A DNA stretch of 20,020 nucleotides, from positions 1-20,020 of the IMG/VR virus record IMGVR_UViG_3300035180_000657, one strand, 5' to 3'. A program made the position numbers and the translations under genes. This document shows positions 1,835-15,378 of the stretch, piece by piece. The notes beneath the pieces were generated by a model that searched no databases, had not been told where the DNA came from, and saw nothing but the letters and a program-made list of their open reading frames with translations. Source of the stretch: a virus. The stretch's first letter is position 1, and every line of letters starts with the position of its first letter.

Positions 1835-2596
1835 ATGAACGACGATCCAGAATTTGAAGGTGGCTTGGATGAACTCGACACGGAGAAAATCACTCCCGGC
1901 GGTGACGAAAATGGCGACGCACAGCAAGGCGCTGATGAAGATGCCGAAGTCGTCAGCCAAGATGGAAGTGAAGACGCCGACGACGAAGCCATTGCCGAAG
2001 CTGCTCGCGCCGCGCAAGCCGCGCAAGTAAGTCATTCTTCAAGAGCGCAAGACCGGATTCGACGACAACAGGAGGAATTGCAACGCGAGCGTCAAGCGCG
2101 CGAATCGGCAGAACGAGAACGCCAACTATTGCTGCAACAGCTTGAACAACAGCGCAATGCGCTGGAACAAGCCCGGCAGCAGCAATACCTTGAAGCACTC
2201 GACCCTGCCGAACGCCAAGCGTATCTGCTCCAACAGCGTATGGAGCAAATGCAGCGCGAAATGCAGCAACAGCAGTTCAGCCAGCAGGACATGATGGACA
2301 AGATTGCGTTCCAACAGCGTGCGATGCAGAACCCGATGGTTGGCAAATATGCCGATCGGGTTGAGCAGACGCTGTTGCAGATGCGCGCAAAAGGCCAGAC
2401 TGCCCCCCGCGAATCGATTTTGAAATTTTTGGTCGGAGAAGATGTGCTCACCAAGGCTCCGGCGTCTATCGCCAAAGCCACTAAAGCCGCTTCTAAATCT
2501 ACGTCCAAGCCGCTACGTGCCCGTGGCAATGCTGCCCCAGGCGCACCGGATGACGATGCAGACTTGGAAGAACGCCTCTCTCGGATGACTTTTTAA
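1835..2596 (+). CDS. Capsid scaffolding protein
   Basis: A 253-residue protein expected to drive procapsid assembly and then leave the head. It has the usual scaffold layout. The acidic N-terminus (MNDDPEFEGGLDELDTEK) runs to about residue 60. A long Gln/Glu/Arg-rich helical centre (roughly 70-170, e.g. QQEELQRERQARESAERER) is strongly coiled-coil. A basic, Lys/Ala/Ser-rich linker follows, and the C-terminus is charged (DDDADLEERLSRMTF), where many scaffolds touch the coat protein. It sits directly upstream of the capsid gene, as scaffolds commonly do. Scaffold sequences diverge fast, so the call rests on composition, helix pattern and position rather than a conserved motif. The start at 1835 is preferred over GTG 1808 because of its ribosome site. 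Confidence 0.8.
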   Translation: MNDDPEFEGGLDELDTEKITPGGDENGDAQQGADEDAEVVSQDGSEDADDEAIAEAARAAQAAQVSHSSRAQDRIRRQQEELQRERQARESAERERQLLLQQLEQQRNALEQARQQQYLEALDPAERQAYLLQQRMEQMQREMQQQQFSQQDMMDKIAFQQRAMQNPMVGKYADRVEQTLLQMRAKGQTAPRESILKFLVGEDVLTKAPASIAKATKAASKSTSKPLRARGNAAPGAPDDDADLEERLSRMTF

Positions 2597-2608
2597 GGAT
2601 TTTGCATC

Positions 2609-3946
2609 ATGGCTACCAATAATGCTGCCAACTTTGCCGCAGACGTAGGCAAATACATTCAGAAAAAGACGCTGGAGTTGACTCAGCGTCAAATCGTTGT
2701 GTCTCAGCTTGCGGAGCGAGTTGACCTGCCGAAAGGCATGGGCACGACCTACTACGCGTTCCGTTACGAGCGCGTTCCCCTGCCCTACACCACTTTGTCG
2801 GAAGGCGTGCCCTCCGCTGGCGAGACGATGACGATTACGCAAGTAACCGGCACCGTGGCGCAGTGGGGCGACCTGATCCGCATCACGGACGTTGCTGAAC
2901 TGACCATCCATCACCCGGTCTTTAAGAAGGCCGTGGAACTGATCGGTTTGCAGGCGACGGAAACCATTGAGCGCAATACGTTCAACGCGATCATGGGCGG
3001 CACGCAGGTTAACTACGTTGGCGCTGTTGGCGCACGCGCTAGTCTGACGAACAGTTCTGTTCTGACCCCGCACGAGCTTAACCGTGCAATGGGCACGCTG
3101 TTCACCAACGGCGCGCGGTATTACATGGGCGGCAGCGAGACGGACATCAAGATGAAGCCTGCCGCAGGCTCCAAGGGCGTCACTGCCGCGACTGCTCCGC
3201 ACTACGTGGCCGTCATTCACCCGCTGGTCGAGCAAGACTTGCGCGAGAACTCGACTGTTGTGACTGCATGGCAATACAGCGACGTTGGCAAGCTGTACAA
3301 CAACGAGATCGGCCAGTGGTCTGGTGTGCGGTTTACCCGCTCCAACCTTGTCCCGGCGTGGACGGGCGCGGCGGCTGTCTCCGGCACGGCAGGCACTGCG
3401 GGTTCGCTGGCGACGAACACTTACTACATCCAGGTCACGGCCTCGGACATCAACACCAACTACGAGAAGGTGATCTACCAGCCGTCTACGGGCATCAGCG
3501 TGACGGGGCCGACCGGATCCATCAGTGTCACGGTGCCGAGCACGGCAGGCTACACCTACAACGTGTATGTTGGCACGTCGTCTCCCCCGTCGAACCTTGG
3601 CTTGTCTGCTTCCGGCCCAACGTCTGGCCCGCTGTCTGGCAACGCGACGCAAATCGCCCCCGGATCGACAGTTGTCATCACGGGCCTTGGCGTGTCGCAA
3701 ACCGCGCCTGCGGCCCCTGCAAACGGTGTGACGGTCTATCCTACCTTCATCTTTGGTAAGGAATCGTTCGCGCAAGTCGAACTTGACTCGCTCAAGACGT
3801 TCTACCTGACCGGCGCGGACAAGTTTGACCCGCAGAACCAAACCCGCGTGGTATCCTGGAAGGTCTTTTACGGCACGATGATCATGAACAACCAGTTCTT
3901 CATGCGCATCGAGTCGGGATCGGCCTTCTCGCCCACCTTTGGTTAA
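2609..3946 (+). CDS. Major capsid protein, N4-gp56 family, with Ig-like insertion
   Basis: The 445-residue coat protein forms the icosahedral shell. Residues about 40-130 show the N4-gp56 family pattern: GTTYYAFRYERVPLPYTTLS, the T-x-T-x-x-Q-V-T-G-T-V-A-Q-W-G-D segment, then LTIHHPVFKKAVELIG and ERNTF. The C-terminus (FGKESFAQVEL... WKVFYGTMIMNNQFFMRIES) returns to the fold core. Between them, residues ~252-370 are Gly/Ser/Thr/Pro-rich beta-strand sequence (TYYIQVTASDINTNYEK, YTYNVYVGTSS) resembling an Ig/FN3-like domain, probably displayed on the capsid surface. Ribosome site AAGGA (2595-2599) overlaps the scaffold stop. A terminator follows, so transcripts may end here and give high coat output. 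Despite the family name, the surrounding gene set is not that of coliphage N4. Confidence 0.92.
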   Translation: MATNNAANFAADVGKYIQKKTLELTQRQIVVSQLAERVDLPKGMGTTYYAFRYERVPLPYTTLSEGVPSAGETMTITQVTGTVAQWGDLIRITDVAELTIHHPVFKKAVELIGLQATETIERNTFNAIMGGTQVNYVGAVGARASLTNSSVLTPHELNRAMGTLFTNGARYYMGGSETDIKMKPAAGSKGVTAATAPHYVAVIHPLVEQDLRENSTVVTAWQYSDVGKLYNNEIGQWSGVRFTRSNLVPAWTGAAAVSGTAGTAGSLATNTYYIQVTASDINTNYEKVIYQPSTGISVTGPTGSISVTVPSTAGYTYNVYVGTSSPPSNLGLSASGPTSGPLSGNATQIAPGSTVVITGLGVSQTAPAAPANGVTVYPTFIFGKESFAQVELDSLKTFYLTGADKFDPQNQTRVVSWKVFYGTMIMNNQFFMRIESGSAFSPTFG

Positions 3947-3954
3947 TGGTTAAC

Positions 3955-3986
3955 CTGACGGGGCTAAGCGCCCCGTCAGTTTCTTT
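3955..3986 (+). terminator. Rho-independent terminator after the capsid gene
   Basis: A perfect 10-bp GC-rich stem, CTGACGGGGC (3955-3964) with GCCCCGTCAG (3970-3979), encloses the 5-base loop TAAGC and is followed by TTTTCTTT-type tract TTTCTTT (3980-3986). The tract runs straight into the GGAG ribosome site of the next gene. Partial read-through would keep downstream genes expressed at a lower level than the coat protein. Confidence 0.92.
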
Positions 3987-3995
3987 GGAGCAAGC

Positions 3996-4304
3996 ATGAA
4001 CGACAAACTTGAAGCACAAATCCGCGAAGCAGCGGCAGCCGCCAAGGCTAAAAAAGATGACAAGCCGGCCGAGGTCGAAGTCGAGTACGAAGAGGTGTTC
4101 ATCGACCTTCCCCCGCATAGCAGCCACCTCTCGATCGACGGGCGACATTTTCAACAAGGTGCGTCTTACAAGGTTACGAAGGCGCAGGCTGCGTCGATGC
4201 GTGATATCATGAGCCGCGCTTGGGCGCACGAACAAGAAGTCCGCGGCCAGCGCAAACCATTCGATGCATATCGTCGTCAACGCGAATTTAGCCTGAGGGG
4301 TTAA
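3996..4304 (+). CDS. Conserved-type small phage protein after the capsid gene
   Basis: A 102-residue protein with ribosome site GGAG (3987-3990), five bases before ATG. The N-terminal ~25 residues are Ala/Lys/Glu helix (KLEAQIREAAAAAKAKK), then an acidic stretch (EVEVEYEEVF). A short folded part follows, with beta character (HLSIDGRHFQQGASYKVTKA) and a helix (ASMRDIMSRAWAHEQE). Small proteins with an 'IDG-x-x-F/Y-x-x-G-x-x-Y-x-V' pattern and a helix ending near a His are, from memory, common next to phage coat genes, but I know of no assigned role. A minor head or decoration-related protein is possible. It is the first gene after the terminator. Confidence 0.7.
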   Translation: MNDKLEAQIREAAAAAKAKKDDKPAEVEVEYEEVFIDLPPHSSHLSIDGRHFQQGASYKVTKAQAASMRDIMSRAWAHEQEVRGQRKPFDAYRRQREFSLRG

Positions 4305-4307
4305 TCC

Positions 4308-4676
4308 ATGAGTGAAAACAGCAACGTTGGGTATGTCTATCAGTTTGCGGCAACTGTCGCAGACGGGATGAGCGTCACCTTCAACGGGAACTTTCCGATC
4401 GGTGTGTCGGCTGAAGCGATCAACGCTGAAATCGACCGCTTCCGCGCTGTGGCCGAGAGGCAACGCGCGAAGAACGAAGTCAAGATGCTTGAGGCAATGC
4501 TGATCGAGAAAGAAGCAACAATCCGTAACGCCGAACTGGATTTGCGCCAGTACCTCAAGAAGAACAAGGACGGCGACGACTTTTCTGAGCGGCTCAAGGC
4601 GAAGATCGAGGAACTGTCGCTCGACTACGAGCGCGGTGTCAAACAGCTCGAAGAAACACGGGCTAAGGCAGTCTAA
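4308..4676 (+). CDS. Coiled-coil phage protein, unknown function
   Basis: A 122-residue protein starting three bases after the previous stop, with a GAGGGG ribosome site (4295-4300). Residues 1-40 look like a small beta-rich part with the segment MSVTFNGNFPIGVSAEAINA. Residues ~42-122 form a long charged helix, almost certainly coiled coil, with Glu/Lys/Arg/Leu heptads (EVKMLEAMLIEKEATIRNAE). The stop overlaps the next start (TAATG), so translation is probably coupled to the adaptor gene at 4676. I do not recognise a named family. Its place between coat and tail adaptor suggests a structural or assembly role, by context only. Confidence 0.7.
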   Translation: MSENSNVGYVYQFAATVADGMSVTFNGNFPIGVSAEAINAEIDRFRAVAERQRAKNEVKMLEAMLIEKEATIRNAELDLRQYLKKNKDGDDFSERLKAKIEELSLDYERGVKQLEETRAKAV

Positions 4677-5344
4677 TGCTTACGGCGCAGCAGATCATTA
4701 CTTACGCTTTGCAGATTGCAAAAGCGCCTGGGTACACCGCGCAGGCGGGTGATCTGCTCAATATGCGCCTTGCAACGCTGGCGCGCACTTATGACCTGGA
4801 CGTGTTGCTCAACACGGCCCAGTTCTCGGTGCCCGCTGGCGTTCAGGTTTATGCGCTCCCTGCGGACTACGTTCGCGGGCACGAACTGTGGTATTACCTT
4901 GGCGGTCTGCCGCAGACGATGCGGCAGATTAGCTTGCCTGATTACGACCGGATCAACGTCGGCTCTGTCGCAATGGCACATCCGACGATGTGGGCAAGCA
5001 ATCCGGCGACTGGGACGCTGCACTTGTACCCTATGCTGAACAGCACGATTGCGTTCACGCTGCGGTATTGGAGTCAGCCGTCCGATATTGCTAACCCTGC
5101 AACGTCCAATGTTGTTCCTTGGTTCCCGGACAGCGACTACTTGCTCACGGCGTTGGCCGCAGACATGATGCGCTTGACCGATGACACGCGCCAGCCTCAA
5201 TATTCGGCTGAGGCGCAGAACAAGCTACAGGCATTCTTGAAGATGCAAGGCGATCGTGAGAACCACGCTCGCACTGTCCAGCTTGGCAATTCGTTTGCGC
5301 CCGGGTCAGGCCGACTGTCGCCGTCTAAGATCACGGGGTTCTAA
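4676..5344 (+). CDS. Head-tail adaptor (tail tubular protein A / P22 gp4-like)
   Basis: The 222-residue protein probably forms the ring that attaches beneath the portal and connects it to the tail nozzle. The pattern fits podoviral adaptors: an N-terminal helical part (MLTAQQIITYALQIAKAPGY, then LLNMRLATLARTYDL), a beta-rich centre with VYALPADYVRGHELWYY and a PTMWASNPATGTLHLYP segment, and a C-terminal helix beginning PWFPDSDYLLTALAADMMRL. The gene starts on the last base of the previous stop and is immediately followed by the nozzle gene, the usual gp4-gp10 or gp11-gp12 type pair. No catalytic motif is seen. The functional call is inferred from this pattern plus gene order, not from a decisive motif. 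Confidence 0.7.
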   Translation: MLTAQQIITYALQIAKAPGYTAQAGDLLNMRLATLARTYDLDVLLNTAQFSVPAGVQVYALPADYVRGHELWYYLGGLPQTMRQISLPDYDRINVGSVAMAHPTMWASNPATGTLHLYPMLNSTIAFTLRYWSQPSDIANPATSNVVPWFPDSDYLLTALAADMMRLTDDTRQPQYSAEAQNKLQAFLKMQGDRENHARTVQLGNSFAPGSGRLSPSKITGF

Positions 5345-6964
5345 ATGCTCCGCAACCCGGCAATCTACCAGTGGCGGCCGGTAGGTCTATCTGATGCGCG
5401 GGATGGCAAGCTGGCGTTCCCCGGCGCTTGCAAACTGCTGACGAACCTGATTCACGATCCGGTCAGCAACAGTATGCTGGCCCCGCGCCCTGCCAGCACG
5501 GTTATCACAACGTTCAGCGGGTTTACGTCGCCCGGCGTTGTGTCTGTCATGCTTTCCGTTGGCACGCGCGTCTTTGGCATGGTTGCCAGCGGGATTTACC
5601 TTGGGTTTGACCAGCCGTTTTGCTACGACACGGCAACTAATGCGTTTGTGCCCATTAGCGGTGTGACCGGCAACCATGTTCCTATAACGCAAGGCACGAG
5701 TGGCGCGTGGACACCCCCTTGCATGGCGGTTGTCGGAAACTACATCGTCATCACGCATCCAGGCTACACGCTGTCCAGCGGCCCAATTGGGACGATTGAC
5801 CTGACGACGCTGGCCTACAGCACGGGCAACATGATGAACGGCATGACCGCCGTGCTGAATGATGTACCGACGTCTGTTGCGCAGTTTTATGGGCGTGCAT
5901 GGTACGCAGTGGGCAACCAAGCCTACTTCAGTGACTCGCTTCTCCCGTTGCGGCAGACCAACGCGGGGCAAGTATTGACGCTTGGCGCAAGCACCGAGCC
6001 GATCACTGTGTTTGTGCCGCAAGGCATTTCAACTGCAACGCAAGGTATTTTGTCTGCGCTGATCGCGTTCAAGGCAAACTCGATTTGGCAGATTACCGGC
6101 GACTGGAACTATGGTGGGTCAACGACCGGAGGCAACCTTGCGCTGAACCAGATCACCGCCAGTGTCGGTTGTTCCGCGCCGCGCACAGCGGTTCCGACTC
6201 CTGCGGGGATCATGTTCATGGCAGCGGACGGGGTTCGCACCATCCCGACGCTGAGTATGGCTGTGACGGAGCCAAACCCTGACGTGGTATATCCGTTCTT
6301 CAACTGCACCCAGCCAACACGCGCCTGCGCGGCCTACAGTGCTGATACGTATCGTATTTCGCTCGATACGGTGACGACAACGGACGTGCTTGGTCGGTTC
6401 GAGTATTGGTTCCCCCTCAAGGTCGGCAAGTGGAATGGCCCACACACGTTCCCCGCGGACGTGATTACCCCACTCGACAACTCGTTCATCGTTGCGGTCA
6501 ACAGCGTCGGTGCAAAGCTGTTTCAGAGCAACGTCTATACTTCCCCAACAGACGTTTTTGTTGAAAACGGTGTGGCGCTGACTGTCAACATGACCAGCAG
6601 CTTGATTGACCCAGACCCGCCGATGGCTGAAAAGTCGTCAGTCGAAATGACGGTTGCAGCAGTAAATGGGCTACAGCCATACACTATACAAGTGTTAGAC
6701 GACCAAGGGCAGCTTATCAACCAAGCAACACTGAGTTCCATAGCTGCTCCAGTCAAATGGGGCGATCTTGGGCTTGTCTGGGGCGCGGCAAATGTTGTGT
6801 GGGGCGCGTTTCCCTACAACTCCACAATCTCGCCGTTGTATTTTTCTGCTCCGCTCGTTTTTCAGACGTGTCAAATCGTCCTTTTTGGAAACGGCGGCCC
6901 GTATTTGCGCTTGGGGCGGGTTAATTTCCGCTATGAGGCACTTCGATACATTGGAGCAAACTGA
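5345..6964 (+). CDS. Tail nozzle / DNA-stabilisation protein (P22 gp10, T7 gp12-like)
   Basis: The 539-residue protein is expected to form the hollow hexameric nozzle of the short tail and to hold packaged DNA in place. It is beta-rich throughout with propeller-like blades. Telling segments are the N-terminal 'P-R-P-A-S' region, GRAWYAVGNQAYFSDSLLP (residues ~183-201), the segment ALIAFKANSIWQITGDWNYG, then LALNQITASVGCSAPRTAVP and GIMFMAADGVRTI. This series recurs in podoviral nozzle or stabilisation proteins as I know them. The ATG directly abuts the adaptor stop with no intervening base, and its own stop (TGA) overlaps the tailspike ATG, so the three are probably translated as a coupled unit. 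The C-terminal ~120 residues are a separate beta domain of unknown contact. Confidence 0.78.
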   Translation: MLRNPAIYQWRPVGLSDARDGKLAFPGACKLLTNLIHDPVSNSMLAPRPASTVITTFSGFTSPGVVSVMLSVGTRVFGMVASGIYLGFDQPFCYDTATNAFVPISGVTGNHVPITQGTSGAWTPPCMAVVGNYIVITHPGYTLSSGPIGTIDLTTLAYSTGNMMNGMTAVLNDVPTSVAQFYGRAWYAVGNQAYFSDSLLPLRQTNAGQVLTLGASTEPITVFVPQGISTATQGILSALIAFKANSIWQITGDWNYGGSTTGGNLALNQITASVGCSAPRTAVPTPAGIMFMAADGVRTIPTLSMAVTEPNPDVVYPFFNCTQPTRACAAYSADTYRISLDTVTTTDVLGRFEYWFPLKVGKWNGPHTFPADVITPLDNSFIVAVNSVGAKLFQSNVYTSPTDVFVENGVALTVNMTSSLIDPDPPMAEKSSVEMTVAAVNGLQPYTIQVLDDQGQLINQATLSSIAAPVKWGDLGLVWGAANVVWGAFPYNSTISPLYFSAPLVFQTCQIVLFGNGGPYLRLGRVNFRYEALRYIGAN

Positions 6965-8655
6965 TGGCTATCATTAACCCTCTAGTCTATACGATCCAAA
7001 ACGGCAACCCGGTAGATGCAACTCCGGTGCAGGCCAATTTTGCGCAGATCGTTCAAGACGTGAACGCAAACGCCGCTCCTGTAGGCGGTAATGCTTCGCA
7101 ACAGTTTCTTGTCGCTCCTGCAACGGTGTCGTCTGCTGCGGTTCCTTTGAACCAAGTTCAGCAGCTTATCGTTGGAGGGGGCGGGGGCGGTGGGGGCCTA
7201 GGGGCGATTGACCCCTCCGCAAAGGCAACGGAAGGGGCTGTTGGGGACAACATCGCCGACGACACTGCCGCATTGCAAAGACTTGTTGCGCGCATTGGGA
7301 CAAACTGGAAGGTCGAGGCAGGAAAATACAAGCTGTCTGGGACGACTGGCGTAGGGGCGTTGCACTTAAGCTATGCAAATGGCGGCATGTACGCATTTGA
7401 CGGCGAGCCGATGCCCGGAGCTATTTACGGTGCGGGCCCGCAGAATAGCATCTTTTGCCCAACGACGACAGGGATGTATGCAATCCAAGCATCTTCAACC
7501 GAAGCGACGTCGGTTATGGAGGTGTGGTATCGCGACTTCTGCATTAGCGGAAGAAACAACATTAACAACGTCAATGGAATGTTCCTTGACGTTGTTGAAA
7601 TGCAAACGCTCGAAAATCTGCGGTTCGAGCAACTGAACACCGGGTTGTACCTCAACAGTGTTGAATACTTAACCCTGCGCAAGTGCCTTTTTGAAGGCAA
7701 CGTCAACGGCATTGTTAGCACCAAAGGGACGAACGGCTTTACACATCTGAACGCTTCGACTTTTCAAGACGTCATTCTTGATCGAAATACTGCCAACGGC
7801 TTGCTGGTGACAGATAACGCAGCTAACCTGACGATTGAAGGTGGCCAAGTAAGCAACAACGGCGTGATGGGCGTTTCTGGAACTGCCGGTCTAAACATCA
7901 CCGTCACCAGCGTAGAAGGGGCGAACGGCGTATCGATTAAGAACGTCTACTTCGAGCTAAACAACGGCGATGCAGACATCAAGATTGTAAACACTGGCAC
8001 TCAAAGGATGACGCACATCATCCAAGGGTGCAATTTCAACCGTGTTAGTAGCACGAACTACACACGAAACAACATTGTTTCGCAAGGCCCTAACACGATT
8101 ATCTTGATTGGTTGCTCGTTTCAGAACTACGGGAGCTATTCTCCAAGTTCATCTAGACCATTCCTTAATGGGGACTCTCAGACGCAATTTGTAGACCTTG
8201 GCTGTTGGTGGGGCAGCGTGCCAGATTACGTTCCGGTGCCAGCGTTCCCGCCGAACCAGATGTATCTTGTTCCTTCGTCGTCCCCAACGCTTTCTTCTTC
8301 GCCGTCCATCGTTCCTATGCAGAAGACGGACTCTTATGGGACGTCGCTATCACCGTATAATGGAGGCGTAAAAGTTTCGCTGCCCGGTTACTATCGAGCG
8401 TACATAAGCCTTCAAGTGAGTGCGGCTGGTGCGGGGTACATTTATGTTGGTGTCGCAGTAAACGGCGCGACGCCCGTCGTTGCCGCAAACTCAGCGTACA
8501 CACCATCCGCGCTAGCGGGCGTCATTATTCAGGCGACAGCGGTCATTCACTTGAACTCAGGAGACGTTGTCTACGTCGGTGGCGAAGCACCTGCGCAGGC
8601 GACGGTTTATCAAACCTCTCCGGCAAGCTGGATGGCGATCGAGGGGCCGATCTAA
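6964..8655 (+). CDS. Tailspike: N-terminal anchor, beta-helix, C1q-like tip
   Basis: A 563-residue receptor-binding protein, probably trimeric. Residues 1-70 form an anchor shared with the fibre at 9175 (31 of 70 identical, no gaps). Residues 71-78 are eight consecutive Gly, a hinge. Residues ~90-125 carry the pectate-lyase-like start of a right-handed beta-helix (DNIADDTAALQRLVARI... VEAGKYKLSG). Residues ~130-415 have short N/G/T-rich strand repeats of the helix (GLYLNSVEYLTLRKCLFEGN). A Ser/Pro-rich linker (~435-450) leads to residues ~465-563, which resemble a C1q/TNF-like jelly roll (GYYRAYISLQVSAAGAGYIY, VIHLNSGDVVYVGG). The host target is likely surface polysaccharide; whether it cleaves it cannot be read. 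The central gene is AT-richer than its neighbours, suggesting exchange. Confidence 0.88.
   Translation: MAIINPLVYTIQNGNPVDATPVQANFAQIVQDVNANAAPVGGNASQQFLVAPATVSSAAVPLNQVQQLIVGGGGGGGGLGAIDPSAKATEGAVGDNIADDTAALQRLVARIGTNWKVEAGKYKLSGTTGVGALHLSYANGGMYAFDGEPMPGAIYGAGPQNSIFCPTTTGMYAIQASSTEATSVMEVWYRDFCISGRNNINNVNGMFLDVVEMQTLENLRFEQLNTGLYLNSVEYLTLRKCLFEGNVNGIVSTKGTNGFTHLNASTFQDVILDRNTANGLLVTDNAANLTIEGGQVSNNGVMGVSGTAGLNITVTSVEGANGVSIKNVYFELNNGDADIKIVNTGTQRMTHIIQGCNFNRVSSTNYTRNNIVSQGPNTIILIGCSFQNYGSYSPSSSRPFLNGDSQTQFVDLGCWWGSVPDYVPVPAFPPNQMYLVPSSSPTLSSSPSIVPMQKTDSYGTSLSPYNGGVKVSLPGYYRAYISLQVSAAGAGYIYVGVAVNGATPVVAANSAYTPSALAGVIIQATAVIHLNSGDVVYVGGEAPAQATVYQTSPASWMAIEGPI
7177..7204 (+). other. Potential G-quadruplex at the tailspike poly-glycine hinge
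   Basis: Four G-runs of 5, 5, 5 and 4 bases (7177-7181, 7183-7187, 7192-7196, 7201-7204) are separated by loops C, CGGT and CCTA. This fits the classical G-quadruplex pattern on the coding strand, so it would also be in the mRNA. It overlaps the eight Gly codons at 7174-7197, and Gly codons are G-rich in any case, so function is not implied. Confidence 0.5.
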
Positions 8656-9174: not shown

Positions 9175-10572
9175 ATGGGTGTTGTTCGTCCAGTCCCTTA
9201 CAACATACAAGTTGGCGAGTATATCGACGCAAGCGCGATCACAAAAAATTTCATCCAGCTTGTTGAAGACATAAACGCTAACGTCCTCGCTGCGGGTGGC
9301 AACCCGTCGCAGCCTTTCTTTGTGGCCCCTGCAGTTGACCCCGGTCAGGCAGTAAACTTGGGGCAAGCTAACTCTTTGTACGCCCCGGCTGGAAACTATG
9401 CGGCGCTTAACGGCGACCCTGCGCAAGTATTTGCAGTAGCAAACGCAACGTCGTCAAATCAAGCGGTCAACCTTTCTCAGCTTGGCAGCTACAACCAAGT
9501 CATTGCTTCTTTTGCAACCGGAACGTTGCCGTCTACTTGTTGGGGCGGCGCGGTTCAAGTTCAGCAAAACGCGACAGCTACGCTTCCAGCAACGAACCCG
9601 CCAGCAGGAAGCAAAGTTGTGCTGTTCGGGTTTGGGGGGCCGTTTTCTGTTGCTAGCAACGGCAACCAGTATATTTACTCTCCAGCATTAGGGTTAACCC
9701 CTAGTTCCGGCCCGACGACAGTCACTGTCTCTGATGGTGGCTGGATTGAGCTTACATCGCGTGGCAACGGTGAGTACGACATTACTGGCGGCTCTTTGTT
9801 AGTGTTTCAAAGTGTTGCTCCGGTCTTTACTCAACCGGTCAGTGTGCCCAATGCGGTGTCAAACGGGCAAGCGGTCAACCTCGGTCAAGTCCAAACTCTG
9901 ATAGGTAACAGCGGCAGTAGTTTGCCTGTTACACAACCCATTTCTTCGTTACCTGCTAACTACGACACAAACCAAGTCGTGTTGTTGGCAACGTCAACGC
10001 CGACGACAGGGGTGTCGTTTAGTTCGTCTGACTCGCGTGTTCTTTCTGTAGGCGAAGGGCCAAACGGCCCATTTGTTCGAGCAAACACAAACCCGCTTGA
10101 CCTGACAAGTAACAGTGGGGTTTTGGTGCCCAACGCGGTGACTAGCGCGCACGCACTAAACCTTGGGCAAGCTGATAGTCGTTACCAACAGCGGAATCTA
10201 ATTGTTGAGGCAGGGGCTGCGGGCACGTTGACTAGTAGTGCCTACATTGGAGTCTATGTTAACGCAATGCAGGTCAATGGCTCTGGCGTAGCGGTTACGT
10301 TGCCGGGGAATGGTGTCGGTAGCTACGCAGTTGCCACAGCCACGGCGACCGCCGCACAAACAATCAACGTCCTGAAGAAAGCTGTTGGCTCGACTACCTT
10401 GACTACGGTCGGAACAATTACTTTTGCAGCAGGTGCGTCGTCTGGAACGTTCTCCACAACCTCCGGCGCGGCAGTGACATTCAACCCCGGCGAAGCAATG
10501 TATGTGCAGGTTGGTAGCTCGGCAGATACAACGCTGGCGAACGTGGCAATTTCATTGTTCCTAACCTACTAA
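9175..10572 (+). CDS. Tail fibre with the same anchor as the tailspike
   Basis: A 465-residue fibre protein. Residues 1-70 are homologous to the tailspike anchor, with shared YxIQxG, NFxQxVxDxNAN, GGNxSQxFxVAPA and AVxLxQ patterns. The shaft contains recurring units around 'P-N-A-V-x-x-x-x-A-V/L-N-L-G-Q': QAVNLGQANSLY (near 60), QAVNLSQL (near 100), VPNAVSNGQAVNLGQVQ (near 222) and VPNAVTSAHALNLGQADSRY (near 320). These spaced repeats are typical of trimeric fibre shafts. The C-terminal ~120 residues form a compact beta domain (INVLKKAVGSTTLTTVGTIT; FNPGEAMYVQVGSSADTTLA), probably the receptor-binding tip. Ribosome site AAGGA precedes ATG. It and the tailspike could share or compete for the same attachment sites on the virion. 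Confidence 0.8.
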   Translation: MGVVRPVPYNIQVGEYIDASAITKNFIQLVEDINANVLAAGGNPSQPFFVAPAVDPGQAVNLGQANSLYAPAGNYAALNGDPAQVFAVANATSSNQAVNLSQLGSYNQVIASFATGTLPSTCWGGAVQVQQNATATLPATNPPAGSKVVLFGFGGPFSVASNGNQYIYSPALGLTPSSGPTTVTVSDGGWIELTSRGNGEYDITGGSLLVFQSVAPVFTQPVSVPNAVSNGQAVNLGQVQTLIGNSGSSLPVTQPISSLPANYDTNQVVLLATSTPTTGVSFSSSDSRVLSVGEGPNGPFVRANTNPLDLTSNSGVLVPNAVTSAHALNLGQADSRYQQRNLIVEAGAAGTLTSSAYIGVYVNAMQVNGSGVAVTLPGNGVGSYAVATATATAAQTINVLKKAVGSTTLTTVGTITFAAGASSGTFSTTSGAAVTFNPGEAMYVQVGSSADTTLANVAISLFLTY

Positions 10573-10581
10573 GGAAAAGAA

Positions 10582-11466
10582 ATGCTGATTTCAATTCCTT
10601 GGGGGCTGCGGAGTAGCCAAAGTGTAAAGGTTGGAACGTTTGCTCTGTTTGGCGGCGGGTATAACGGGGGCGATAAAAACACTACATCCGTTTACACCTA
10701 TTCCTCGAACACCGCTGTTGCTGGCGGGAACTTGAGCTACGCAGCGTCTAGTTTAGCCGCCGCAGGCAACAGTACGCTCGGCGTCTTTGGTGGCGGCAGC
10801 GGCCCTGTCAGCACTACATCCGTTTACACCTATTCCTCAAACACCGCTGTTGCTGGCGGGAACTTGAGCTATGCAGTGTATGGTTTGGCTGCTGCAGGCA
10901 ACAGCACGCTTGGCGTATTTGGTGGCGGTGCTGGCCCTGTCAGCACTACATCCGTTTACACCTATTCCTCGAACACCGCTGTTGCTGGCGGGAACTTGAG
11001 CTACGCAGCGTCTAGTTTAGCCGCCGCAGGCAACAGTACGCTCGGCGTCTTTGGTGGCGGCAGCGGCCCTGTCAGCACTACATCCGTTTACACCTATTCC
11101 TCAAACACCGCCGCTGCTGGCGGGAACTTGAGCTACGCAGCGTATGGTTTGGCCGCCGCAGGCAACAGCACGCTCGGCGTTTTTGGCGGCGGGAATAACG
11201 GGGGCGCTAAAAACACTACATCCGTTTACACGTATTCCTCGAACACCGCTGCTGCTGGCGGGAACTTGAGCTACTCGGCGTATTATTTAGCTGCCGCAGG
11301 CAACAGCACGCTCGGCGTCTTTGGCGGAGGGTATACCGGCTCCAGCCCATTTAATACTACATCCGTTTACACGTATTCCTCGAACACCGCCGCTGCTGGC
11401 GGGAACTTGAGCTACGCGGCGTATAGTTTGGCTGCCTGTTCGCCTAACCCCGGAGTAAACTGGTAA
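10582..11466 (+). CDS. Kelch-like six-repeat beta-propeller protein, probable adhesin
   Basis: A 294-residue protein made almost wholly of six repeats (residues 34-77, 78-121, 122-165, 166-211, 212-258, 259-294) of 44, 44, 44, 46, 47 and a shortened last unit. Each reads TTSVYTYSSNT, then A-G-G-N-L-S-Y-x-x-x-x-L-A-A-A-G-N-S-T-L-G-V-F-G-G-G. The hydrophobic-plus-GG strand and the V-Y-T-Y strand match kelch blades, though the usual Trp is missing. The N-terminal strand GTFALFGGG (18-26) supplies exactly the segment the last repeat lacks, which is how propellers close. Ribosome site AAGGAAAAG. Placed after the fibre gene, it is probably a receptor-binding or decoration protein; no anchor domain is seen, so how it joins the virion is open. 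Confidence 0.78.
   Translation: MLISIPWGLRSSQSVKVGTFALFGGGYNGGDKNTTSVYTYSSNTAVAGGNLSYAASSLAAAGNSTLGVFGGGSGPVSTTSVYTYSSNTAVAGGNLSYAVYGLAAAGNSTLGVFGGGAGPVSTTSVYTYSSNTAVAGGNLSYAASSLAAAGNSTLGVFGGGSGPVSTTSVYTYSSNTAAAGGNLSYAAYGLAAAGNSTLGVFGGGNNGGAKNTTSVYTYSSNTAAAGGNLSYSAYYLAAAGNSTLGVFGGGYTGSSPFNTTSVYTYSSNTAAAGGNLSYAAYSLAACSPNPGVNW
10681..11436 (+). repeat. Six tandem 132-141 bp repeats coding for the propeller
   Basis: The marker ACTACATCCGTTTACAC recurs at 10681, 10813, 10945, 11077, 11215 and 11356, giving periods of 132, 132, 132, 138 and 141 bases. Copies 1 (10681-10812) and 3 (10945-11076) are identical over all 132 bases while copy 2 differs from both, so recent gene conversion or a two-unit duplication is likely. 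Copies 4 and 5 carry longer, different loops between blades. The last copy breaks off at 11436. Confidence 0.95.
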
Positions 11467-12086
11467 TGCTTGTCAACAATCATCGGAAGCACTCTTCTTT
11501 CGCCCTTCGGCACTTCCTTGTTGGGTCTTGCTACACGCCAGATGCAGCGTTCTGCCTTTTGTACGCGCAAGGCGAACAAGTTGAAATGGACGTAGCGGCA
11601 GGCGAAGCGAGTCTCCTTGAGCAAAAAGCAAGCGAGATAGAGTTGCAAGAGAAGGTCGCCTCTGCCGCATCTGAGCCGGATCGTTTGCGCGCCCAGGCTG
11701 AACTCGTTAAGCTGAAGGCGGCTCGCAAGAACTTCGAGCTTAACCTGGAGGGCGCAAAGCGAGAACTGCAAGAGATCAACGCCATGCTCGAAGAACTCAA
11801 ACCCATGTGCAAACACTGGGACGCTGACATCCTCAAGATGGAGCAGGCCATGCAGCGAGACGAGTGGGCCGAAGAACTAAAGTCCCGCGCCGAAAACATG
11901 CTGCTCGCTAATGCAATCGGCATTAGCCACGACCAGATCGCCACTATGCGTCAGCACCCAGACTTTTCGGCCAAGATTTTGCCGCACATCCGCAAGGTGG
12001 GCACGCAGCTTGCGCTTGCACAACAGACGCAAGACTTCAAGCAAGTCGAGTCTATGTTGACCCAAACACTGCTGTTGGGGCGTTAG
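11466..12086 (+). CDS. Coiled-coil phage protein downstream of the fibre genes
   Basis: A 206-residue protein whose ATG overlaps the propeller stop (TAATG). The first ~35 residues are a compact segment with HSSFALRHFLVGSCYTPDAA and CLLYAQ. Residues ~40-140 are a long charged helix or coiled coil (LLEQKASEIELQEKVA, LRAQAELVKLKAARKNFELN). The rest is helical (IGISHDQIATMRQHPDFSAK). No signal peptide or membrane span is visible. I do not recognise a named family. Because fibre genes are often followed by their assembly chaperone and this gene is translationally coupled to the propeller gene, a fibre or propeller assembly role is a reasonable hypothesis, without sequence proof. A structural role is equally possible. 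Confidence 0.7.
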   Translation: MLVNNHRKHSSFALRHFLVGSCYTPDAAFCLLYAQGEQVEMDVAAGEASLLEQKASEIELQEKVASAASEPDRLRAQAELVKLKAARKNFELNLEGAKRELQEINAMLEELKPMCKHWDADILKMEQAMQRDEWAEELKSRAENMLLANAIGISHDQIATMRQHPDFSAKILPHIRKVGTQLALAQQTQDFKQVESMLTQTLLLGR

Positions 12087-14031: not shown

Positions 14032-15378
14032 ATGACCGCTGCCGCGCAGATCAACGGCTGGCTCAATGCGCGGTACATCAAACGCAGCGCCGCGCAGATC
14101 TACGCGCGCATTGACTGGGGCGACCTAGACAAAACAGAGGCGCAGGTTTGGGGCGCGTGGATATTCGGCGCGGCCGGCAGCGGCGTTTCCGCAGCCGCTG
14201 CTCAGACTGACGCCGCAGACGTTCAGGCCGCGTCCGGCACAGTGCCTGCATCTGCCCAGGCTGCTCAGACTGACGCCGCAGACGTTCAGGCCGCGTCCGG
14301 CACAGTGCCTGCATCTGCCCAGGCCGCTCAGACTGACGCCGCAGACGCTCAGGCCGCGTCCGGCACGCTGACTGTCGTCGCCCAGGCCGCTCAGACTGAC
14401 GCCGCAGACGCTCAGGTCGCGTCCGGCACGCTGACTGTCGTCGCCCAGGCCGCTCAGACTGACGCCGCAGACGCTCAGGCCGCGTCCGGCACGCTGACCG
14501 TCGTCGCCCAGGCCGCTCAGGCTGACGCCGCAGACGCTCAGGTCGCGTCCGGCACGCCGACTGTCGTCGCCCAGGCCGCTCAGACTGACGCCGCAGACGC
14601 TCAGGCCGCGTCCGGCACGCTGACCGTCGTCGCCCAGGCCGCTCAGGCTGACGCCGCAGACGCTCAGGTCGCGTCCGGCACGCTGACTGTCGTCGCCCAG
14701 GCTGCTCAGGCGGACGCCGCAGACGCTCAGGTCGCGTCCGGCACGCTGCCTGTGTCCGCCCAGGCTGCTCAGGCGGACGCCGCAGACACGCAGGTTACAA
14801 GCGGAGTTCTCGGCATCAGCGTTGTTGCGGTGCAGGTGGACGACACGGATACGCAATCCGCGCTGGTTGTTACTAGTCAGCCTATTGTTATTACGGCGGT
14901 ACAAGTCAACGGCGCTGACGTTCAAATTGCGTCCATCAACTCCGGCTACAGCACACTGAACGCGGCATACTTATACGCTGCGCAACAAGCTGCGACACCG
15001 CAGTTCTATACTTCGTCACCCCCGCCGCAAGCGAACATAGCGGTCTATACGCAGTCCAGTACGTTCGCCGTCCCGGCGTATTCCAATTACTTCCTCGTGA
15101 GCGCAACGGCTGCGGGCGGTTCACCTTATGGCGCAGCAGGGCGGCAAACGTCACGGCAACAGTTGCCTGTCGTTGCTGGCGACATGCTGACAGTATCTAT
15201 CTCGCCAAACGTCACTGTTCAGCGTGGGAGCCAAACACTGTTGTCGTTGCTGGACGGCGCGGCGTATGCAAAAGGCACGCAAGGCGGCCTACCGCAAGAC
15301 TCTGGAATTGTAGGGCTTGGTAGTGGAGTCGATGAGGGCGAGCCATTTCCAGCGGCGCTCGTTTTTATTTGGAATTGA
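14032..15378 (+). CDS. Repeat-rich tail-fibre-like protein
   Basis: A 448-residue protein in three parts. Residues 1-55 are a compact start with Trp and Tyr (INGWLNARYIKRSAAQIYAR). Residues ~56-265 are ten tandem 21-residue units of the form A-A-Q-x-D-A-A-D-x-Q-x-x-S-G-T-x-x-V-x-A-Q, decaying into looser copies (VQVDDTDTQ, VQVNGADVQ) to about residue 305. Residues ~340-448 resemble the Gly-rich tips of phage fibres: FAVPAYSNYFLVSATAAGG, later VVAGDMLTVSISPNVTV, ending ALVFIWN. The repeat block could be a rigid beta-solenoid rod or extended spacer holding the tip away from the particle. Role as fibre is inferred from this layout. Start ATG 14032 follows AAGG (14021-14024). Confidence 0.75.
   Translation: MTAAAQINGWLNARYIKRSAAQIYARIDWGDLDKTEAQVWGAWIFGAAGSGVSAAAAQTDAADVQAASGTVPASAQAAQTDAADVQAASGTVPASAQAAQTDAADAQAASGTLTVVAQAAQTDAADAQVASGTLTVVAQAAQTDAADAQAASGTLTVVAQAAQADAADAQVASGTPTVVAQAAQTDAADAQAASGTLTVVAQAAQADAADAQVASGTLTVVAQAAQADAADAQVASGTLPVSAQAAQADAADTQVTSGVLGISVVAVQVDDTDTQSALVVTSQPIVITAVQVNGADVQIASINSGYSTLNAAYLYAAQQAATPQFYTSSPPPQANIAVYTQSSTFAVPAYSNYFLVSATAAGGSPYGAAGRQTSRQQLPVVAGDMLTVSISPNVTVQRGSQTLLSLLDGAAYAKGTQGGLPQDSGIVGLGSGVDEGEPFPAALVFIWN
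14201..14830 (+). repeat. Ten tandem 63-bp repeats
   Basis: Units beginning CTCAG(A/G)CTGACGCCGCAGAC start at 14201 and every 63 bases through 14768. The first two differ by one base. Units 5+6 (14453-14578) and 7+8 (14579-14704) differ at only two of 126 positions, so a two-unit block was duplicated recently. The tenth unit diverges after 14787. Period is a multiple of three, so copy number can change without breaking the frame. Confidence 0.95.

Follow-up and report, generated by a model that had tools for sequence, protein, structure and literature searches.

The reading frame at positions 10582-11466 of the window, a 20,020-base record of an uncultured virus, is predicted to encode one closed six-bladed Kelch-type β-propeller, and structure modelling, structural matches and a family profile support this assignment. 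We propose, at a probability of about 0.68, that the propeller is a variable host-binding module borne on the virion and served by a dedicated partner protein, with its scaffold homogenised among the blades and its loops diversifying. The fold, the six-fold copy number, the variability of the loop face, the homogenisation of the blades and the linkage to the partner and fibre genes were established by computation.

The propeller gene and its repeats

The reading frame lies on the + strand, is intact, begins with ATG and encodes 294 residues, with a ribosome-binding-like sequence, AAGGAAAAG, just 5' of it. It is considered a real gene because it is conserved in relatives with a low pN/pS of 0.16 in the scaffold. 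Six repeats were found to start at residues 21, 67, 111, 155, 199 and 245, the first five having lengths of 46, 44, 44, 44 and 46 residues and the sixth comprising 47 residues plus a C-terminal tail. Each repeat contains the motifs [AG][LV]FGGG and TSVYTYSSNT, the array yields a Tandem Repeats Finder score of 1020-1142, far exceeding chance, and the DNA of the blades is 80-95% identical pairwise, beyond the pairwise identity of about 60% that marks recently amplified propellers. These results confirm the six near-identical repeats claimed in an earlier sequence-only reading of this DNA.

The BC loops are YNGGDKN in blade 1, SGPVS, AGPVS and SGPVS in blades 2-4, NNGGAKN in blade 5 and YTGSSPFN in blade 6. 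The differing loops had been assigned to blades 4-6; blades 5 and 6 are indeed distinct, but the differences are not limited to that part of the array, as blade 1 shows. Only two Trp residues are present in the protein, at positions 7 and 294, and the absence of the kelch Trp from every blade was borne out. The features of the gene are as follows.

10582-11466, + strand: propeller gene, predicted six-bladed Kelch-type, 294 residues (Kelch_3 profile, AF2, structure matches)
10582-10635, + strand: N-terminal tail, residues 1-18, MLISIPWGLRSSQSVKVG (motif M[LIF]xS[IV]PWG kept in close relatives)
10636-10779, + strand: strands B, C and D of blade 1 and the next strand A, repeat start at 10642 (ring closed by N-terminal strand; AF2, repeat register)
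10780-10911, + strand: repeat 2, BC loop SGPVS (repeat alignment)
10912-11043, + strand: repeat 3, BC loop AGPVS (repeat alignment)
11044-11175, + strand: repeat 4, BC loop SGPVS (repeat alignment)
11176-11313, + strand: repeat 5, BC loop NNGGAKN (repeat alignment)
11314-11463, + strand: repeat 6, BC loop YTGSSPFN, tail SPNPGVNW (final strand A completes blade 1)
10680-10847, + strand: 168-bp exact internal duplication, copy 1 (offset of 264 bp, equal to two blades)
10944-11111, + strand: 168-bp exact internal duplication, copy 2 (identical to 10680-10847)

The N-terminal tail (residues 1-18) is predicted to be flexible and is a candidate docking peptide.

Overall structure

Prediction by AF2 with an alignment of 94 rows, consisting of phage relatives of the window propeller, revealed a closed six-bladed propeller with a pLDDT of 92.8 and a pTM of 0.89, the five models being alike in confidence. 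The ring spans residues 19-288 of the model; the first ~13 and the last four residues are of low confidence. Six four-stranded antiparallel blades are arranged in a closed ring, as in Kelch-type propellers. According to the repeat register and DSSP, the ring is closed by three N-terminal strands (B, C and D) together with one C-terminal strand A. Similarly, the Kelch domain of KLHL20 is closed via a C-terminal strand A and N-terminal strands B-D (PMC6720452). The last repeat is not followed by a GVFGGG strand, and GTFALFGGG at the N-terminus supplies it, just as the sequence-only reading had it.

A Foldseek search against the PDB gave the designed propeller SAKe6 (7on7) as the top match, with an E-value of 3e-19 and TM-scores of 0.84/0.90, followed by the Kelch domains of KLHL3, Keap1 and KLHL17. 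Superposition by VIA-align on 7onc yields a Z of 38.0 and an rmsd of 2.0 over 270 residues, and the Z for Keap1 is about 36.5. The suspected resemblance to a designed propeller is thus literal, the top PDB matches being the computationally designed SAKe6. The Pfam profile Kelch_3 (PF13415) scores 41.6 bits over the whole protein against a curated cut-off of 22, the single best stretch alone scoring 16.8 bits. The GG doublet at the end of strand B (VFGGG or LFGGG) is present in all six repeats. In place of the canonical Tyr and Trp after the GG strand, the Tyr is found (VYTY) and the Trp is absent; because of this missing consensus Trp, we describe the protein as a divergent Kelch-type propeller rather than placing it among the canonical kelch-repeat proteins.

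The alternative to a closed ring would be an open fibre of repeats or a solenoid. The AF2 model computed from the single sequence does look solenoid-like, and with it Foldseek found no match at E < 0.001 and only weak, non-significant β-helix matches. However, that model has a pLDDT of 66 with five discordant models, and it is superseded by the alignment-based model, a confident six-blade Kelch ring. In addition, the copy number is fixed at six across the family, which an open fibre would not require. The open-fibre reading is therefore essentially refuted, and the preference of the sequence-only reading for a closed six-bladed propeller is supported by the AF2 model, the structural matches with Z of 36-38, the Kelch_3 profile and the constancy of six blades. 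That reading had named structure prediction and a kelch-profile search as checks; the former gave a closed six-blade ring when the alignment of relatives was used, and the latter a Kelch_3 score above the cut-off.

Relatives and number of blades

Relatives were fetched by motif scans that are independent of repeat number, resulting in nine close loci and many diverse ones (loci are designated L with a number). A blade profile was run on all frames, giving 90 distinct complete genes. Exactly six blades were counted in 84 of them and twelve in one, and two entries are the 4+2 pieces of one gene, which a single stop codon splits in L048 (8486-9514). The propeller of L029 has five blades and a degenerate first blade. 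The only true deviants among the 90 are L007 with five blades and L008 with three. In both short genes (L008 630-1109 and L007 4013-4726) the start, the end and the partner gene are intact, and they could represent a real half-ring and a short ring, respectively, or collapse during assembly. A fixed count of six is what a closed ring leads one to expect, and an open fibre does not.

We also considered that the number and uniformity of the repeats might be an artefact of short-read assembly. The 168-bp exact duplicate is close to a typical short-read length, and the arrays of L008 and L007 could be collapsed ones. Against this, arrays of six repeats were found in dozens of independent contigs with differing blades and also in the genome of the cultured phage BcepSauron (L200), and exact repeats are shorter than 113 bp in most relatives, which makes such an artefact scarcely credible.

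A tblastn search with the window propeller against phages and plasmids returned no relatives, probably as the repeats are lost to low-complexity masking; queries with more diverse relatives reached BcepSaruman, BcepSauron and S-SKS1. Bacterial and archaeal genome contigs gave no relatives with the blades of the close family or with the wider motif, these pattern searches being narrow.

Homogenised scaffold and variable loop face

The scaffold DNA of the blades is 0.907 identical within phages, compared with 0.858 between phages at the same blade position and 0.849 at different positions. The wider family follows the same trend, with a blade identity of 0.729 within and 0.625 between. The uniformity of the array looks to be maintained by exchange between blades. 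The six-blade array predates this phage, and the 168-bp duplicate is a recent duplication or conversion with a two-blade period. The sequence-only reading had suspected a newly amplified propeller. The array itself is not new, as six-blade genes sharing this scaffold occur widely in phages, and what is recent is the one 168-bp duplication or conversion.

Nearly all amino-acid changes within the close family fall between GGG and TSVYTY, which is the BC loop and also varies in length, and after GGNLSY, which is the DA loop. Between phages, the pN/pS is 0.16 for the scaffold, 0.63 for the BC loop and 0.80 for the DA loop; as the loop values stay below 1 and the blades are not orthologous, relaxed constraint is inseparable from positive selection here. 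Over 544 blades of the wider family, the within-protein entropy is highest in columns 7-13 (BC loop) and 33-37 (DA loop), and 96% of the inserted residues fall in the BC loop. The ligand surface of KLHL20 is likewise formed by the BC and DA loops (PMC6720452). Comparison with four close phages revealed a pN/pS of 0.33-0.43 for the propeller gene versus 0.06-0.27 for seven neighbours at similar pS. The propeller gene has the highest value of all genes compared and thus diverges faster than the neighbouring structural genes, as receptor-binding proteins are expected to do. The loop changes include indels and varied codons, and their pattern does not suggest adenine-specific mutagenesis by a diversity-generating retroelement as the source.

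Genomic neighbourhood

The genes around the propeller that are relevant here are listed below.

6964-8655, + strand: tailspike-like gene (phrog_17420 tail protein, weak NosD)
9175-10572, + strand: upstream tail-fibre-like gene (C-terminal 130 residues match phrog_7049 tail fibre)
11466-12086, + strand: partner gene, 206 residues (start codon overlaps propeller stop; motif family, no named family)

Tail-fibre genes lie directly upstream of the propeller in the window, L007, L021, L026 and L049, an association with tail-fibre genes that is expected of receptor-binding proteins. In the loci examined other than BcepSaruman, the propeller follows tail-fibre genes, usually gapless. The fibre gene differs in L007 and L018 except for its C-terminal 130 residues, which stay beside the propeller there as well, and in L030 the propeller sits at the end of a tail-type protein as a fusion.

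Several other observations were made in these loci. The tailspike-like and fibre-like proteins of the window have a common N-terminal module of about 70 residues with about 45% identity (6964-7170 and 9175-9380), a further copy of which occurs in L016 at 4040; this module is probably a virion anchor. In L042, a C-terminal six-blade Kelch domain is fused to long RCC1-type repeats in a protein of 1414 residues (2521-6762, - strand). Downstream in the window, positions 14200-14794 within the reading frame 14032-15378 hold 9.4 copies of a 63-bp repeat (21 residues, AQAAQTDAADAQAASGTLTVV) in a gene of the structural module. This frame and its upstream neighbours 12739 and 13222 are present in L017, and L011-L015 are without all three between the homologues of 12089 and 15377. 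In L046, a gene for a 2OG-Fe(II) oxygenase (7494-8162; PF13759, phrog_81) immediately precedes the partner, and collagen-like fibres with GPTGPTG repeats are found in related phages (L049 3810-5651); hydroxylation of prolines in phage collagen is possible.

The partner gene

In the partner protein, a conserved N-terminal motif, [KH][RK]xNxxFxxxxFxxGSCxTxDxAxxLL, precedes a charged, coiled-coil-like region, and no named family was found for this protein in Pfam, NCBIfam or PHROGs. A CDPS match (0.007) and coiled-coil matches to C/EBP were judged meaningless for function. The partner was found in 65 of 72 propeller loci, and three of the seven others end too soon; the propellers of L022, L042, L063 and L090 are without it.

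A scan for the partner alone was also carried out, of which the best 80 of 134 loci were kept and pooled with the earlier loci, giving 70 distinct partner genes. Within this set, 69 partners share the locus with a propeller and one lies at a contig end; the propeller is directly upstream on the same strand in 63 and elsewhere in the locus in six. Propeller-free partners may be commoner than this suggests, given the 54 weaker partner loci outside the kept set. A scan with divergent partners yielded 31 loci, of which 28 have a propeller next to the partner and one lies at a contig end; in L203 a lectin-type Laminin_G_3 protein replaces the propeller beside the partner, and in L206 the partner adjoins a tail-fibre protein. 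Among 50,697 cultured phage records, the partners of the window and L027 match only those of the Burkholderia jumbo phages BcepSaruman and BcepSauron, both of which have a propeller, the two genes being adjacent and divergently oriented. The partner is a near-obligate companion of the propeller. A role as a general tail-fibre chaperone was rejected, as almost all copies in the partner-only scans accompany a propeller, and so was its being a mere neighbour in the lineage of the window's phage, as it also occurs in BcepSaruman and BcepSauron.

Up to three consecutive propeller genes share one partner, as would befit a chaperone or adaptor acting on the constant part. We infer that the partner most likely serves as an assembly chaperone or adaptor, folding the propeller or attaching it to the fibre. 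Triples of consecutive propeller genes with different loops, overlapping ends and one partner occur in L044, L049, L074, L082, L089 and L093. The first propeller of a triple has an fn3-like domain in L048, and its N-terminus is similar in other loci.

Proposed function

Based on these results, we propose that phages use the propeller as a host-surface-binding module, either adhesin or receptor-binding, that is made together with the tail fibres. The propeller would be present in the virion and bind a ligand of the bacterial surface. The scaffold would be kept constant and homogenised across the blades by intragenic exchange, and on one face the BC and DA loops, six of each, would diversify and form the ligand surface. 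The dedicated partner encoded by 11466-12086 would fold the propeller or mount it on the fibre. The phage adhesin suggested by the sequence-only reading would be consistent with the location beside tail-fibre genes and with the variability of the loop face. As a distant precedent, the Kelch-domain protein CBB_552 was detected in the virion of phage CBB by mass spectrometry (PMC5259590). A sign against a virion adhesin is that the propeller-partner pair of BcepSaruman lies among metabolic genes and not among tail genes.

Two other functions were weighed. The propeller might sit on the fibre or baseplate as a virion decoration or structural cap, stabilising that structure or binding nonspecifically, with loops that vary because they are unconstrained. 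Loop pN/pS values below 1, the fusions to a tail protein (L030) and to RCC1-type repeats (L042), and the Kelch proteins with no known role in jumbo-phage virions (PMC5259590) would all suit a cap. However, the pN/pS of the propeller is clearly above that of the adjoining fibre and tailspike, both variation and indels are restricted to the face with which other Kelch domains bind their ligands, and a lectin-type domain takes the propeller's place in L203, so that we consider a cap unlikely. The position of the BcepSaruman pair, divergent and between metabolic genes, instead recalls an intracellular protein-binding or host-takeover factor, whose loop face would bind a host protein during infection with the partner as a co-factor; Kelch domains are, moreover, mostly protein binders. 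Yet the other examined loci place the gene after tail-fibre genes, usually without a gap, fusions to tail-type proteins occur, and CBB_552 was found in a virion, all of which render a takeover role rather improbable.

Beyond the host-binding module itself, we tentatively suggest, as an idea with somewhat less than even odds, a widespread phage host-recognition system resembling a natural binder library. It would pair a uniform six-blade scaffold, on one face of which up to twelve loops could vary independently of each other, with a dedicated partner, would be swappable as a unit (with a lectin in one phage), and the three-repeat protein of L008 would assemble as 2x3 half-rings.

Comparison with known systems

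Kelch propellers, amplified propellers (PMC9218822) and Kelch proteins in phages (PMC5259590) are already known. Similar to the window protein, the designed SAKe6 propellers (7on7, 7onc) have six near-identical four-stranded blades and an equal ring size, but they are human-designed, not of phage origin, and about 12-21% identical in sequence. The Kelch domains of Keap1 and the KLHL proteins likewise have six blades, a GG strand B, closure by strand A with strands B-D and a BC/DA ligand face, whereas they are about 15% identical, with diverged blades and a conserved Trp, and belong to eukaryotic BTB-linked ubiquitin ligase adaptors. In BcepSaruman, gp110, annotated as a 'kelch-motif containing protein', is a homologous propeller (31-34% identity) and the adjoining gp109 a homologous partner (31-39% identity); this phage differs from the window in the divergent orientation, the surrounding metabolic genes, the 263-kb genome and the more diverged blades. 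No study of the function of gp110 or gp109 was found in the literature searched. The recently amplified propellers described by Pereira and Lupas 2022 (PMC9218822) likewise have highly repetitive blades and include a Kelch group and viral members; that article makes no mention of phage, whereas the family represented in the window has a constant number of six blades, a variable loop face and a partner gene. The Kelch proteins of jumbo phage vB_PcaM_CBB are also Kelch-type propellers but a more distant structural match (E 3e-8), and no partner gene is reported in the passages of PMC5259590 consulted. No description of a six-blade family with a variable face and a partner gene was found in a literature search whose scope did not extend to subscription journals and preprints.

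This natural family nears the perfect symmetry that has been achieved in Kelch propellers by design. It keeps a strict count of six blades across very different phages, with variation mainly on the ligand face, and thus lends itself to testing how repeat proteins remain uniform as they diversify. Binding scaffolds might be drawn from it, and it provides a way to approach host recognition in uncultured phages. The partner family, previously unnamed, gains a first functional lead and can be used to flag such putative adhesins in metagenomes.
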